From Candidatus Gastranaerophilales bacterium (GTDB taxonomy: Bacteria > Cyanobacteriota > Vampirovibrionia > Gastranaerophilales > Gastranaerophilaceae): a stretch of DNA of 56,373 bases. The position numbers and the translations under genes are program-made. The notes below the pieces were generated by a model. It saw nothing but the letters and a program-made list of their open reading frames with translations, was not told the DNA's origin and ran no database searches. How positions within the stretch are numbered: the first letter of the stretch is position 1; the number at the start of each line of letters is the position of its first letter. Below are positions 44,580 through 54,950 of the stretch, in pieces. The DNA lies in NCBI GenBank assembly GCA_944322935.1, contig CALUQO010000014.1, forward strand, positions 1-56,373. Direction: 5' to 3'.

Positions 44580-44778
44580 GTCTATCCTTCTCATGTTATG
44601 CTCGTGCGCATTTATTTTGCGCAGAACCTCATAAATAAAATTTTAACATGAAGAAACATTGTAAACAGACTGATGTAACAAAATATTTCATTTAAAAAAA
44701 TTTTTAGTCATAAAATGACAAATTTTTTTGTTTATGGCTTTAATAAATATACATCTAGCGAAACAAACGGAAATAATA

Positions 44779-46254
44779 ATGATTAAATTTGTCAAAGGTG
44801 TGGTCGTACCGGTAATAACAAAAACGTCCGCCGTAATAAAAAAACAAACGGAACAAATTCAAAACAAGGCAATAAACACACTTGAGCGCACGCCCGGGCA
44901 GGATTCTTTTGTTGCTTCTGCATCAACTGCGGAAAAAACAGCAGCAACTCCTTCAATAACAGCAAGCAGGAAAATTACCGATGCGACACAACACCAAACA
45001 CTTGTTGACTATGAATTTATAAAGAAAGAAAAACTTTTTAATGATGCGATAATATTTTTGCTTCAGCCCAAAACAACGGCAACCGGGGCAAAAATATTTA
45101 CGCCTAACCAAACAAAGATTATAAATCTTGCCGCAAAAAAAATTACTTTTTATAAAGGTACGGCAAAAAGACTCGAACAAATGGGAACAGAAACAATTGA
45201 CAGAGTAATAAAAGATGTTAAAACAATTTTTGGCGGAGAAAAAAATTACGGTAAATACCTGCATGCAAGAAACAAAAACGGAGTGCCATCATCTAAAGAC
45301 TCAGTTTCTATTTACAACAAAATAATAAAAGAGTTTAACGACCAAAAAGTTAATACGGAAATAATGAATATCTTTGCAAAAAGACTGTATCAAAAACCGT
45401 ATAAACTTCTTGATAAAACAGAAAAAGAACTTGTAAAACTTTCGATTTTTGACGGAGATGTAAAATTTGAATCAAGGGATTATAAGACATTTGAAAAAAT
45501 ACTCAAAACTGGCAAAAGGGATTATGAAGAAGCAGTCAACTGGATAAAAGACCTTATCGGTTTAAGAATGATTATTCCTGATACAGCCGATATGTCGGTG
45601 GTTGCTGAGTATCTGACAAACGGAATACTTTCCGGAAAATTGAATGCAACAAGGGTAAGCAATTATCACTCAAGCCACATTTATCCTTATATCAGTCAAG
45701 ATACGGTAAAGCTCTGGAAACAATCGGTTCCGGGGATTGAGCTTGTCCAATCAAGCGCAATCAGAAAACAAAACGGATACACAACCACACAGATTAATAT
45801 TTTGCATCCGGTTAAAGATAAAAGCGGAAAAATCAGATACGTTTTTGTCGAACTTCAGGTTCGAAGCGAAGAGCTTAATAAAATCGGACAGATTGAACAC
45901 TTGATTTATGATATTCTTGCCAAGAAAAACATAGGCAAAAATATACCTGAGCTTGAAAAATACTACGAGTCTATAGGTATAGAAAAGGCTGTTAATGAAG
46001 TTTTCGGAAATTCTAAAAAAGAAGCTGCATACACTGATTACGAGCGTGCAATGTATTCGTGGATAAGACACAATGAAACTCCGGAGGCAAAAGCCCGTTT
46101 GTCATACACAAGGCCGATTTTAACAGATTTTGGTCTGGGTGAATATGAGCATTTATTGAGTTTTGATGCTCTGCAGCAAATTGATGATACCGCCTGTATC
46201 TTAAAGGCAAGATACGGAAAACCGAATTTAAAAACGTTTACACCAAAGAAATAA
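44779..46254 (+). CDS. RelA/SpoT-fold nucleotidyltransferase-like protein with long N-terminal extension
   Basis: About 491 residues. Residues about 160-385 resemble the (p)ppGpp synthetase domain: K-DSVSIYNK (173-181, the donor-ATP segment, but the usual Arg two residues before is Ser), WIKDLIGLRMII with the metal-binding Asp (D258), the guanine-stacking NGYTTTQINI (Y334) and VELQVRSEELNKIGQIEHLIYD (E358, R362, H374). There is no HD hydrolase, TGS or ACT domain. The first 150 residues are Thr/Lys/Ala-rich and unlike any known small alarmone synthetase. A toxSAS-type toxin, a tRNA/nucleotide pyrophosphokinase or a dead homologue are options. The start is the ATG at 44779; no strong Shine-Dalgarno motif is visible. 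Confidence 0.7.
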   Translation: MIKFVKGVVVPVITKTSAVIKKQTEQIQNKAINTLERTPGQDSFVASASTAEKTAATPSITASRKITDATQHQTLVDYEFIKKEKLFNDAIIFLLQPKTTATGAKIFTPNQTKIINLAAKKITFYKGTAKRLEQMGTETIDRVIKDVKTIFGGEKNYGKYLHARNKNGVPSSKDSVSIYNKIIKEFNDQKVNTEIMNIFAKRLYQKPYKLLDKTEKELVKLSIFDGDVKFESRDYKTFEKILKTGKRDYEEAVNWIKDLIGLRMIIPDTADMSVVAEYLTNGILSGKLNATRVSNYHSSHIYPYISQDTVKLWKQSVPGIELVQSSAIRKQNGYTTTQINILHPVKDKSGKIRYVFVELQVRSEELNKIGQIEHLIYDILAKKNIGKNIPELEKYYESIGIEKAVNEVFGNSKKEAAYTDYERAMYSWIRHNETPEAKARLSYTRPILTDFGLGEYEHLLSFDALQQIDDTACILKARYGKPNLKTFTPKK

Positions 46255-46804: not shown

Positions 46805-46833
46805 TTGAAAAATATTATTTCGTGTGTTATTGT
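46805..46833 (+). promoter_or_regulatory. Candidate promoter of the structured leader
   Basis: TTGAAA (46805-46810), 17 bases, TATTGT (46828-46833). A second candidate with the same spacing, TTGAAT/TATTGT, is at 46754-46782. Either would place the RNA element at 46918-47016 in the 5' leader of the 47039 gene. Confidence 0.35.
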
Positions 46834-46917
46834 TTTTCTACTGAGACATTTTTGAATTTTTGGATTAAATAATGAACACATTGTTATTCACTAAACATCA
46901 TCATAACCATCATATAG

Positions 46918-47016
46918 TCCCGATAAGGCTATAGGGTTATTTTTGATGTTCGAGTGATAACCGATTCTTTTATAAGAAATCAGCCTTTTCGGGATAAACG
47001 GACAGGCTGTTTTTTT
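46918..47016 (+). promoter_or_regulatory. Structured leader: three-way-junction RNA with terminator/antiterminator switch
   Basis: P1: TCCCGATAAGGCT (46918-46930) pairs with AGCCTTTTCGGGA (46982-46994) at 12 of 13 positions. It encloses P2, GGTTAT/ATAACC (46935-46940, 46957-46962), and P3, GATTCTT/AAGAAATC with one bulge (46963-46981); P2, P3 and the 3' arm of P1 follow with no unpaired bases. The alternative helix CAGCCT (46981-46986) with AGGCTG (47004-47009), followed by seven T, is an intrinsic terminator that needs the same AGCCT bases as P1. The gene begins at 47039 with its own CGGAG. The layout is that of an attenuator or riboswitch; it matches no class I can recall. Confidence 0.6.
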
Positions 47017-47038
47017 ATGTAAATAATCGGAGAATATA

Positions 47039-48319
47039 ATGTCATTAACAACTATAATATCAGCTATCGGTAACACTAATAAACAATACCCGCTTATAGT
47101 CAGAGACTGCGGAATCGAAGTACCGACAAAGATTGTACTTACCTATAATCAGAATAAGGATGAATCAAAGGATGTTGCAAAACTTGCGGCACGTGAACGA
47201 TTTTTAGATGAATACGCAGTGTCTGCAGTTTGGCTCGGCGGAATTCCGTTAGTCAGCAAACTGTGCGACAGCTTTATAAAGAAAAAAGGTTACAATCCCA
47301 ATATTAATCTTAATCTTTTTAAACAAAGCAAATACCAGGGCATTGATATTAACATAAAGAATTTTGAAGGCAAGGTCAGTCAGGGTGTGATAGATGAACT
47401 TAAAAAGGTAAAAAACAACAAAGCTGTTTTTGAAAAATTACTTGCCCTGAAGTTTGGATTATCAACAACAATACCTATGCTGTTTATGGGGGTAATACTT
47501 CCAAAACTTATTTTTGCCTCATCCGCACGAAAAATAGAAAAATTAAAAGCCCGAAAATTACAAAAAGAAAAACAATACCAAACGATTTACGAAAACCCGA
47601 TGTCTTATATAAAAGACGGAAAAATATCTTTTAAAGGTAATACAATATCAAAGATTGCAAATTTTTCCACCGTGGATAAAATGGCCGTAACTGACGGCGG
47701 TTACGCTCTGGGCAGAGTTGCTACCGCACGTAATAAGAACGAAGCAATCGATGTCGGGTTCAAAATGGCAGGCATGTTGTTTTTGAACTTTGTTGCGCCA
47801 CCATACCTTGCAAAATTTCTCGATAAAATGACTTATAAACTCAGCGGGCTGAATGTTGCGCTTGACCCTATTATACTGGATGACAAAAAATTTATGGAAA
47901 CAATTAAAAATAACTCTTTGCTGCTTCCAAAAAATAATACAGAAAAAGAGATTATTGAATTTTTGGATAAAAACCCGCAAAGTCTGTTTGCAAAATACGC
48001 AAAACAGTTCTGTGATGTTAAATATTTGAAAAACGATGTCAGAGACCCGAGAGCCTGGGTGAACATAAAAAAAGTTGTCGGGCTGAAAGAAGAAATGGAA
48101 AAATTCGCAATAAATGCAATTAAAAGCCGGGATATTTACGCATTTGCCAAAAAGGCGAAATGGGCAAAATCTTTTAATATTCTTACAAATATTGGTTTAA
48201 GCAGTGCTCTGCTCGCTTTTGCTTTGCCTAAAGCCCAGTTTGCGTTCAGAAAATTTATTACCGGGTCTGATTTGGAACCTGGGCTCGCTGACAGCAAGGA
48301 TAAATTTTCTGAAAAATAA
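47039..48319 (+). CDS. Membrane protein with an SFKG motif, function unknown, behind a putative attenuator
   Basis: 426 residues. Hydrophobic segments at about 58-75, 135-165, 225-245 and 375-390 suggest a multi-pass protein with long charged loops. ISFKG occurs at 196-200, just after the second membrane hairpin, the same relative place as in the 41312-42784 protein. EAIDVGFKMAG (about 240) recalls EALDVGLHVDD in the 37561-38607 protein. No known domain. CGGAG precedes the ATG. Confidence 0.75.
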   Translation: MSLTTIISAIGNTNKQYPLIVRDCGIEVPTKIVLTYNQNKDESKDVAKLAARERFLDEYAVSAVWLGGIPLVSKLCDSFIKKKGYNPNINLNLFKQSKYQGIDINIKNFEGKVSQGVIDELKKVKNNKAVFEKLLALKFGLSTTIPMLFMGVILPKLIFASSARKIEKLKARKLQKEKQYQTIYENPMSYIKDGKISFKGNTISKIANFSTVDKMAVTDGGYALGRVATARNKNEAIDVGFKMAGMLFLNFVAPPYLAKFLDKMTYKLSGLNVALDPIILDDKKFMETIKNNSLLLPKNNTEKEIIEFLDKNPQSLFAKYAKQFCDVKYLKNDVRDPRAWVNIKKVVGLKEEMEKFAINAIKSRDIYAFAKKAKWAKSFNILTNIGLSSALLAFALPKAQFAFRKFITGSDLEPGLADSKDKFSEK

Positions 48320-48378: not shown

Positions 48379-48987
48379 GTGATAGTTACGGATGAGCACA
48401 GTATTATGATTGGCAATTATCTTGCCTATCTGGAGTTTTTAAACAAAAAACTCCTAAAGTTCTTTGCGTCTCAAAAACCTTATATTTTTTGCAAACAGGG
48501 ATGCTCAAGATGCTGCAGGCATGCACAGTTCCCTTATACAGCCATTGAATTTCGCTTTTTGCTCGCAGGAGCATTGACCCTCGATGATGCAACACAGAAA
48601 AAAATCGAGTCCAACATAAAAGCTATTCTTGAAAAAAAGAAAAAATACAGAGGAAAAAAATTTCTTTATGATTGTCCATTTTTAATAGACAACGCTTGCA
48701 GTGTATATGATTACCGCGGTGTGATTTGCAGAACGTTCGGTCTTATGACAAATACGGAAAATAATAAAATAAGAGCTCCGTTTTGTGCGTTTAAAGGCTT
48801 GAATTATTCCAATGTTTTAAATCTTAAAAAGAAAACAATTTCCGTAAGAAAGTTTAAAAAACTAAACACAACAAGCGAACCGCTCGGGTTTAATGTAAGC
48901 TACAAATATTTGACGGGAGAAGACTACGAGCAGGCCTTTAATCTTAAATTCGGAGAAAGCAAACCTCTTATAGATTGGTTTGAGTAA
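48379..48987 (+). CDS. YkgJ-type Cys-rich protein (putative Fe-S or zinc binding)
   Basis: 202 residues. CKQGCSRCC, YDCPFLIDNACSVYDYRGVICRTFG and APFCAF give the YkgJ/UPF0153 cysteine pattern, in a longer version than the 10202-10609 protein. The role is unknown. The GTG start falls where transcription should begin. It may be cotranscribed with rimO, 26 bases downstream, though rimO also has its own promoter. Confidence 0.82.
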   Translation: MIVTDEHSIMIGNYLAYLEFLNKKLLKFFASQKPYIFCKQGCSRCCRHAQFPYTAIEFRFLLAGALTLDDATQKKIESNIKAILEKKKKYRGKKFLYDCPFLIDNACSVYDYRGVICRTFGLMTNTENNKIRAPFCAFKGLNYSNVLNLKKKTISVRKFKKLNTTSEPLGFNVSYKYLTGEDYEQAFNLKFGESKPLIDWFE

Positions 48988-49007
48988 ATAATTCTTTAAT
49001 GTACAAT
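48980..49007 (+). promoter_or_regulatory. rimO promoter, leaderless spacing
   Basis: TTGAGT (48980-48985), 16 bases, TACAAT (49002-49007), six bases, ATG at 49014. It overlaps the 3' end of the preceding gene. No ribosome binding site is visible. Confidence 0.6.
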
Positions 49008-49013
49008 AATCTT

Positions 49014-50327
49014 ATGAACAAAAACAAAATTGCATTGATAAATCACGGATGTGCAAAAAACCTCGTCGATTCCGAACTTATGCTTGGTCTGCTTGCACAA
49101 AACGGTTTTAATATAACATTAAACGATGATGAGGCAGATATTGTAATTATTAACACTTGCTCATTTATCCACGATGCGGAACGAGAATCAGTTCAATCTA
49201 TAATAGAAACAGCTGATAAAGGCAAAAAAATAATTATAACTGGCTGTTTACCGCAAAAGCACAAAGACGAGCTTAAAAAAGCCGTGCCAGAGGCAGTTGC
49301 AATGCTCGGTACATCAGACATTGAAAAAATAGTCGAGGCTGTAAAATCCGCAGCACAAAATAAAGAATACTTTTGCGCAATATCTGAAAAACCTGTGTAT
49401 ATTTATCCCGAAAATGTTCAAAGACAGCAAATAACGGTGGGTGCCAGCTCTTATGTAAAAATTGCTGAGGGATGCAATTACCAATGCGGTTACTGTATTA
49501 TTCCAAAATTACGCGGTTCGTATCGTTCAAGAACCATTGAAAATATTGTAAAGGAAGTGAAAGAACTCGCTCAAAAAGGTGTGTCTGAAATTGTTTTAAT
49601 AGCACAGGATACAACTGCCTACGGGATTGACCTGTATAAAAAGCCCTCACTTGCAAGGCTTTTAAAAGAGTTGAACCAAATTGAAGGAATAAATTGGATA
49701 CGCGTAATGTATACATACCCGTCAATGTTTGATGATGAACTAATTGATGCATACGCAAACTGTGACAAGGTTGTAAAGTACGTTGATATACCTCTTCAGC
49801 ATTCTCACCCTGAAATGCTCAGGGCAATGCGTCGACCTGTTATGGACTATTCGGAATTTCTGGCTAAATTGAGAGAAAAAATTAAAGGCGTTGCTATTCG
49901 TACAACATTTATCGTTGGATATCCCGGGGAAACACCCGAGATGTTTGAGCATCTGTATGAGTTTACCAAACAGGCAAAATTCGACAAAATGGGTGCGTTT
50001 GAATTTTCAAAAGAAAAGGGAACCTATGCTTATACACTGCCGGAACAAGTTCCTGCCAAAATTAAAAAGCAAAGAAAAAACAAGCTTATGAAATTGCAAA
50101 AGAGTATTTCTCTTGAAATAAATCAATCTTTTATTGATAAACAACTACCGTGCATAATCGAATCATTAACAGATGACGGCACTGTAATAGCCCGTTCTTA
50201 CAGGGATGCTCCTGAAGTTGACGGGCTTGTGTATATAAAAACTGATGAATTGCTGGTTCCGGGTGATATTGAAACAGTTCAAATAACCGGCTGCGATGAT
50301 TATGACTTATACGGCGTAATTAATTAG
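49014..50327 (+). CDS. rimO: Ribosomal protein S12 methylthiotransferase RimO
   Basis: About 437 residues. Auxiliary-cluster cysteines C13 (HGCAKN), C49 (NTCSF) and C78 (TGCLP), radical SAM cysteines C154, C158 and C161 (EGCNYQCGYC), AQDTTAYGIDLY and DIPLQHSHPEMLRAMRR are RimO-specific, and a C-terminal TRAM domain follows. It methylthiolates an Asp of ribosomal protein S12. MNKNKIALINHGCAKN is the canonical N-terminus, so I reject the ATG five codons upstream, which lies inside the -10 region. Its stop overlaps the convergent gene by four bases. Confidence 0.94.
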   Translation: MNKNKIALINHGCAKNLVDSELMLGLLAQNGFNITLNDDEADIVIINTCSFIHDAERESVQSIIETADKGKKIIITGCLPQKHKDELKKAVPEAVAMLGTSDIEKIVEAVKSAAQNKEYFCAISEKPVYIYPENVQRQQITVGASSYVKIAEGCNYQCGYCIIPKLRGSYRSRTIENIVKEVKELAQKGVSEIVLIAQDTTAYGIDLYKKPSLARLLKELNQIEGINWIRVMYTYPSMFDDELIDAYANCDKVVKYVDIPLQHSHPEMLRAMRRPVMDYSEFLAKLREKIKGVAIRTTFIVGYPGETPEMFEHLYEFTKQAKFDKMGAFEFSKEKGTYAYTLPEQVPAKIKKQRKNKLMKLQKSISLEINQSFIDKQLPCIIESLTDDGTVIARSYRDAPEVDGLVYIKTDELLVPGDIETVQITGCDDYDLYGVIN

Positions 50328-53945: not shown

Positions 53946-54950
53946 ATGAACCTACTTCAGCTTTCTGCAACAATTTCACCTAATACCCCACAAACACAGC
54001 CGGCTCAAAAGATAACAAATGAAACACCAAATAAAACACGTAATTCCATTGTTGGCGGTTTTGCAGGATATGGTGCTGCTTCTGTTATATCATCTTCTTT
54101 AAAAGAACCTTTGATTTTTTATTCCGATGAAATTGCGAATAACATAAAAGAAGAATTAGGCAAGGAAAATTTAAAGTCTATTATAGACACGGCCGATAAA
54201 TTTATTGAAGATAAAAAATTAAAAGAAAAAGGTTTAAAGGTATTTAAAGTCAGCAAGGACATATCGCCTGAAGAGCAACAAAAAGTTATGGCTGCTGTTT
54301 TTGAAGGCCGCAATGCTGCCGGAAAATTTTTGTATAAAAAAAGCTTAAAGTATGATAGCAAACTGCTTAAAACTATGGCTGATATGGTTTCTTTCGGGCT
54401 TAACGGATTATCAAGATCAGCATTGTACCTGCCTAAATCACGAGCACTTTTGCTGGGGCAAAAATATGCAGGGATTGAAACATTTAAAGAATTAGCACTT
54501 GCAGCCGGAAAATTTTCAAAATTACAAGCTGCAACAACACCCGTATATAAAGGGTTGAAATATTTGGCAATTCCTATAATACTTATAGCCACTTGCAGCA
54601 GAAATAAAGATATACCGGAAGGACAACAGCTCACTAAAAAAGAAAAATTTGATAAGTTTACAAACTTTGTCAGAAATAATGCCGCTAAACTGTCCATGGC
54701 CGCATTTGTTCCTGCTTTATTTATGAATATTAGCAATTCAACAAATGCGGTAAGGATAGCGCAAAAATATGCTTCAAAAGAAATTGCGCAAGCTGTGTAT
54801 ACTCAAGAGGGAGTTAATGCCGCAAGGACTCTGTTGTCAACACTTATAACAGGGCTTTCTGCCGTGTCTGGCGTAAAAGTCAAAGACTGGTTCCAAAAAC
54901 GCAATGACAAAAGAGCTTTAGCTGTACAGGATACTTCTACAATAAAATAA
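53946..54950 (+). CDS. Membrane protein of unknown function
   Basis: 334 residues. A Thr/Pro/Gln-rich head (1-35) is followed by a Gly/Ala segment (SIVGGFAGYGAASVISSS), a charged region (50-120) and hydrophobic segments near 205-220 and 245-265 plus 295-315. It shares the polar-head, membrane-pair and Lys-rich-loop layout of the SFKG proteins but lacks SFKG itself. No known domain. AAGGATG precedes the ATG. Confidence 0.73.
   Translation: MNLLQLSATISPNTPQTQPAQKITNETPNKTRNSIVGGFAGYGAASVISSSLKEPLIFYSDEIANNIKEELGKENLKSIIDTADKFIEDKKLKEKGLKVFKVSKDISPEEQQKVMAAVFEGRNAAGKFLYKKSLKYDSKLLKTMADMVSFGLNGLSRSALYLPKSRALLLGQKYAGIETFKELALAAGKFSKLQAATTPVYKGLKYLAIPIILIATCSRNKDIPEGQQLTKKEKFDKFTNFVRNNAAKLSMAAFVPALFMNISNSTNAVRIAQKYASKEIAQAVYTQEGVNAARTLLSTLITGLSAVSGVKVKDWFQKRNDKRALAVQDTSTIK

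Follow-up and report, generated by a model that had tools for sequence, protein, structure and literature searches.

Which signal is read by the compact RNA structure that precedes a gene without assigned function in Candidatus Gastranaerophilales? The window, i.e., the whole analysed stretch of 56,373 nucleotides, carries this structure at 46918-47016, where an earlier note had proposed an attenuator built around a riboswitch of unknown class, with a three-way junction that senses a ligand, a protein or a tRNA. Here, we conclude from comparative sequence analysis that the element is very probably a histidine-specific, ribosome-mediated attenuator of the hisL type. This confidence covers the histidine attenuator only and does not extend to the function of the protein.

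The leader peptide and its RNA elements

All structural parts described earlier were recovered in place (Table 1): a helix between TCCCGATAAGGCT (46918-46930) and AGCCTTTTCGGGA (46982-46994) with 12 out of 13 possible pairs, two directly abutting hairpins enclosed by it, and a terminator stem built from the 3' strand of the helix and followed by seven T. What had been overlooked is the short ORF 46872-46934. The proposed span starts too late, as it misses the start of this leader at 46872 and the first three His codons (46896-46904).

Table 1. Features of the histidine leader and the regulated gene, in window coordinates
Feature	Position	Strand	Basis
Putative promoter-like site TTGAAA-17-TATTGT, extended TG	46805..46833	+	consensus match only; similar boxes in closest relatives (alignment)
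GGA, the leader's weak ribosome binding site	46862..46864	+	sequence; AAAGGA or similar in other clades
ORF of the leader peptide, MNTLLFTKHHHNHHIVPIRL*, including the stop	46872..46934	+	frame kept in 9 distinct leaders of close relatives
Regulatory codons CAT CAT CAT AAC CAT CAT (HHHNHH)	46896..46913	+	sequence; His cluster in 153 of 153 collected leaders
Antiterminator 5' arm, inside the leader ORF	46918..46930	+	pairing with 46982-46994; covariation
Junction inner hairpin 1, GGTTAT/ATAACC (arms 46935-46940 / 46957-46962)	46935..46962	+	sequence; stalled-ribosome fold; AGAATTGA/TCAATTCT equivalent in other genera
CCGATT, 5' arm of the outer helix enclosing the terminator	46961..46966	+	pairs with 47025-47030; CAATT/AATTG in other genera; weaker covariation
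Junction inner hairpin 2, GATTCTT/AAGAAATC (arms 46963-46969 / 46974-46981)	46963..46981	+	stalled-ribosome fold; closest relatives only
Intrinsic terminator CAGCCT-loop-AGGCTG + T7 (stem 46981-46986 / 47004-47009; T7 47010-47016)	46981..47016	+	sequence; covariation; comparison against shuffles
Switching strand: antiterminator 3' arm and terminator 5' arm	46982..46994	+	duplex compared with shuffles; covariation of both folds
AATCGGAG, outer helix 3' arm, overlapping with the gene's ribosome binding site	47025..47032	+	full fold; presumed role
Regulated gene, 426 aa, mostly helical, probably a membrane protein, no histidine	47039..48319	+	family without assigned function

The leader ORF reads ATG AAC ACA TTG TTA TTC ACT AAA CAT CAT CAT AAC CAT CAT ATA GTC CCG ATA AGG CTA TAG and thus encodes 20 residues, five of them specified by His codons. 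The 5' arm of the long helix sits in codons 16-20, right after these. As in leader ORFs of the hisL type, there is a start codon, a (weak) ribosome binding site and a group of clustered His codons. Matches to the promoter consensus number 4 in a pattern scan where 2.6 are expected.

The leader was found upstream of the gene in 14 out of 14 orthologues of the genus. Among nine distinct leaders from close relatives, variable columns are distributed 3/5/10 over the codon positions, the third being the most variable. A larger collection of 153 upstream regions was gathered from overlapping sources and spans about 25 genera. Every one carries the His cluster (151 recognised by an automatic pattern; the other two, MTINFLQKHYKNHHIDLKRL and MKKALIKMYHHSYGTHG, scored by eye), and MIISNVIKFHHHHHCNLKRL, MFTPSVKRHHHNHHHCH and MNKFYLTTEHRHHHIIPKGL are examples. 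The leaders hold 3-7 His codons, mostly CAT (630, as compared with 39 CAC), with varying spacing and free interruptions, and the residues separating the histidines vary freely. C-terminal residues NLKRL, VPIRL and NPKGL are seen repeatedly across genera.

A search of 60 genomes with a leader covariance model gave 26 strong sites, each with E 1.3e-7 or better. A coordinate comparison places all 26 directly before the regulated gene, and there are no strong sites in those of the 60 genomes that lack the gene. Convincing copies of the element were not found elsewhere in the window's own genome, where none of the other CAYCAYCAYNNNCAY sites, judged by their ORF only, resembles a leader of the same design.

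Competing folds and the position of the ribosome

The segment as a whole folds with z = -4.2, and none of 200 shuffles is as good. For the free RNA, the lowest-energy fold is the terminator state, while in our folding calculations the three-way junction takes this place only if a ribosome covers the 5' part, first His codons included. An intrinsic terminator lies between leader ORF and gene, as in hisL; it went unreported in a pattern scan, which permits loops of 3-8 bases only.

Covariation was assessed in an alignment of 47 leaders that was not fitted to the structure. The antiterminator helix shows compensatory changes at 11 of its 13 pairs (87 cells, compared with 27.6 after shuffling), and the signal drops sharply when the helix is slid along the alignment. 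Changes on both sides yield CCCGA/TCGGG, CCTGA/TCAGG, CCTTG/CAAGG and CCCTCGGG/CCCGGGG. The duplex of the two arms, i.e., of the codons following the His run with the terminator 5' strand, is better than all 20 shuffles in 104 out of 131 leaders. Covariation of the terminator is present and weaker than that of the antiterminator. These covarying pairs in homologous leaders bear out the earlier proposal of two mutually exclusive folds acting as an attenuator, and control of the downstream gene is likewise supported.

Conservation is less uniform in the other parts. Inner hairpin 2 is seen only among the closest relatives and is absent from the second clade of the genus; it was dropped as a core feature because its conservation ends there. 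The outer helix, CCGATT/AATCGG here and CAATT/AATTG elsewhere, encloses the terminator, covaries more weakly and may act as a second block on translation. A strong terminator was found in 68 distinct leaders, and in some genera other hairpins replace it. The T-run is absent or poor in several genera (g24, g28, g34, g40 and others), where the gene's ribosome binding site can become involved with the 3' segment or hairpin instead, and the output within the leader family seems to shift between termination and translation. Two genera (g9 and g29) and one genome of a third (G076 of g20) have kept the His codons while antiterminator arm and such a terminator are missing, which calls for a different output in these cases.

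Since the 5' strand of the helix encodes part of a conserved, His-rich peptide, the sensor is most simply a ribosome that translates the His codons. We modelled the switch by folding the region downstream of an assumed ribosome footprint in the 68 leaders with strong terminators. Mean pairing of the terminator is 0.18 for a ribosome whose A site contains the first His codon and 0.13 for one two codons further on, compared with 0.92 when the stop codon occupies the A site and 0.81 without a ribosome. The respective values for the window's leader are 0.00, 0.00, 0.74 and 0.73, and its stalled-ribosome fold is the very three-way junction of the earlier note. In three relatives of the window (G010, G011 and G021), a stall at the first His codon fails to beat the terminator in the model; with the ribosome two codons further on, the stalled state wins in each of them, by the smallest margin in G021 (0.38). 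In these calculations, an antiterminator that excludes the terminator depending on the position of the ribosome is thus obtained, as expected for the hisL type.

We propose the following mechanism. As RNA polymerase transcribes the leader (roughly 180 nt), a ribosome would translate the 20-residue peptide. When charged tRNA-His is scarce, the ribosome would stall at the His codons and leave CCCGATAAGGCT free to pair with AGCCTTTTCGGG. This would close the three-way junction, consume the 5' strand of the terminator and allow transcription of the gene. With plentiful histidine, the ribosome would reach the stop codon and mask the 5' arm, and the terminator would form. The product, a protein with hardly any histidine, could be made even while histidine is lacking. 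The tRNA option of the earlier note comes close to this, as charged tRNA-His would be the signal, yet one read via the ribosome.

A metabolite-binding riboswitch of a new class, with the junction as its aptamer, would be in line with the compact junction, its strong fold, its overlap with the terminator and the lack of any Rfam family at its threshold. We nevertheless consider it extremely improbable, and the ligand-sensing part of the earlier note unsupported: the closing helix lies within a conserved ORF bearing His codons, even the second clade of the genus has no inner hairpin 2, and the leader alignment displays conserved pairing with no conserved unpaired core in the junction that could bind a ligand. 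It is very improbable, too, that the peptide itself rather than charged tRNA-His halts the ribosome, be it by nascent-chain arrest or as a metal-sensing His-rich peptide. The recurrent C-terminal residues would suit such a peptide, as would the different leader-like ORF, ending in NLxWGL, of distant relatives of the gene. However, the C-terminal residues are accounted for by the covarying RNA helix, the His codons differ in number and spacing and are freely interrupted, and a protein that avoids histidine, encoded by a gene that replaces histidine biosynthesis (see below), indicates the amino acid. The chance that we see a plain intrinsic terminator with accompanying hairpins and no control function appears negligible. 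The free RNA does fold to the terminator state, but no leader examined has lost the His codons, and compensatory changes maintain the alternative helix in different genera; the latter finding already refutes this reading in the main.

The regulated protein and histidine biosynthesis

The product of 47039-48319 comprises 426 mostly helical residues (AlphaFold mean pLDDT 77.6) with at least two clearly hydrophobic segments. Searches against Pfam, NCBIfam and PDB sequences returned no significant match, and a comparison of the fold with the PDB (Foldseek, VIA-align) no convincing one, with Z 5 at most for a helical protein. The protein may nonetheless be a transporter.

Histidine is nearly absent from this protein. 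It makes up 0.09% of all residues in 80 named orthologues, 59 of which contain none, compared with 1.81% in paralogues and 1.96% in neighbouring ORFs; among 111 neighbouring ORFs of at least 380 aa, none is free of histidine. The window's protein alone (0 His, 6.3 expected, Poisson P 0.002) is less striking than the orthologue set. Enzymes required while an amino acid is in short supply are known to be poor in that very residue (PMC4209129).

The distribution of the gene points the same way. Orthologues with strong scores occur in 167 out of 288 genomes of the family: 162 genomes have the gene only, 74 HisG only, 5 both and 47 neither (Fisher p about 6e-30, a value inflated by relatedness, which the test ignores). 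The complementarity repeats inside three genera (g1, g21 and g41). HisG (PF01634) and HisD (PF00815) are absent from the window's own genome, which is 99.8% complete, and from nearly all gene-bearing genomes. The link to the pathway is not absolute, given the 5 genomes with both and the 47 with neither. One of these five (G183:C10:29015-30756) carries adjacent hisG and hisD genes whose scores set them apart from the others in the family; this his operon may have been acquired. Among HisG-bearing relatives, His leaders before hisG amount to one weak ORF in 30 loci, so that the his genes there seem not to share the element. A gene with a His leader that occurs mostly in species without histidine synthesis suggests an unrecognised way of obtaining histidine.

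The best reading of the protein is therefore that of a histidine-starvation-induced protein of histidine auxotrophs. Histidine supply from outside would be its most likely role, either as a direct importer or as a helper. More specifically, but tentatively and at somewhat less than an even chance, we suggest a new family of importers of histidine or histidine peptides, or an essential part of one, that replaced the lost biosynthesis in Gastranaerophilales and shed nearly all of its own histidines to be makeable during starvation. A general starvation or envelope protein that is induced by histidine shortage is a further possibility, which we regard as falling short of an even chance as well. 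It concerns the function of the protein only and is compatible with the attenuator. The lack of a match to known transporters by sequence or fold, the presence of only two or so clearly hydrophobic segments and the RelA/SpoT-type gene upstream in many loci all speak in its favour, whereas the near-complementarity with the his pathway better fits histidine supply.

Some observations were made on the genomic context. The upstream gene of the window (44728-46254) encodes a 508-residue protein with a RelA/SpoT domain (Pfam E 9.7e-7), and a full-length gene of this type lies divergently upstream, on the minus strand, in 37 of the 80 named loci (L165-L189 and others; judged by eye from the sequence). 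Downstream neighbours (48379-50327) encode a CxxCxxCC protein and a RimO-like radical SAM/TRAM methylthiotransferase and are not among the most recurrent neighbours across the named loci. A 334-aa ORF at 53946-54950 also lacks histidine and has no Pfam match. A different short ORF is conserved before paralogues of the window's gene and before its relatives in other families of the order (G000:C11:46878-47639; L041-L056; L285-L290). It reads, e.g., MFNNRRNTQSRANSQIVLVMNLVWGL or MINTRRITQANRKLVRIANLIWGL, ends in NLxWGL just before the gene and may be an arrest peptide or another leader.

Significance and relation to known attenuators

A protein family without assigned function in uncultured gut bacteria gains a concrete, testable role. 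Histidine is indicated by three lines of evidence that are independent of each other, namely the codons of the leader, the nearly complementary distribution of gene and his pathway, and a protein that has lost almost all of its histidines. The combination of leader codons with avoidance of the cognate residue could reveal other uncharacterised amino-acid supply genes in auxotrophs. In addition, His-leader attenuation is extended to a lineage next to Cyanobacteria, for which we found none in the literature searched, and to a target other than a his operon; on histidine auxotrophy or attenuation in Gastranaerophilales/Melainabacteria, the search yielded nothing relevant.

Among Proteobacteria, histidine attenuation via the ribosome is a known mechanism. 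When Rfam was scanned at gathering and at permissive thresholds, the only hits were sub-threshold, namely to Yfr10, to the PyrR binding site (RF00515; 24.9 bits, threshold 54) and to His_leader (RF00514; 16.6 bits, threshold 49). The element shares with hisL of Escherichia coli and Salmonella (RF00514) a short peptide with a His run, an antiterminator that competes with a terminator and a stalled ribosome as sensor. Homology to hisL is not detectable, however. Here, the antiterminator arm occupies the codons immediately behind the His run, and the controlled gene, which is not a his biosynthetic operon, occurs mostly in genomes lacking such an operon. The theory of ribosome-mediated attenuation has been treated before (PMC1183508).

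Outside the Proteobacteria, candidate His-leader attenuators were described in the Bacillus cereus group, Peptostreptococcaceae and Erysipelotrichales (PMC9413887). These Firmicutes candidates likewise combine a predicted His leader peptide with terminator and antiterminator, but control known his operons or transporters, in contrast to the uncharacterised family of Gastranaerophilales studied here. His-specific T-boxes of Firmicutes also read the charging of tRNA-His and control terminator formation; they bind uncharged tRNA directly, however, and have a conserved T-box sequence, which was not found in the window, nor did the T-box covariance model in Rfam match there. SD-sequestering translational attenuators are resembled in g24 and similar genera, where the T-run is missing and a 3' hairpin can pair with the ribosome binding site, except that both kinds of output seem to be present in one orthologous leader family here. 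Novelty lies not in the type of mechanism, which is known, but in the lineage, the uncharacterised target and the histidine loss of that target.
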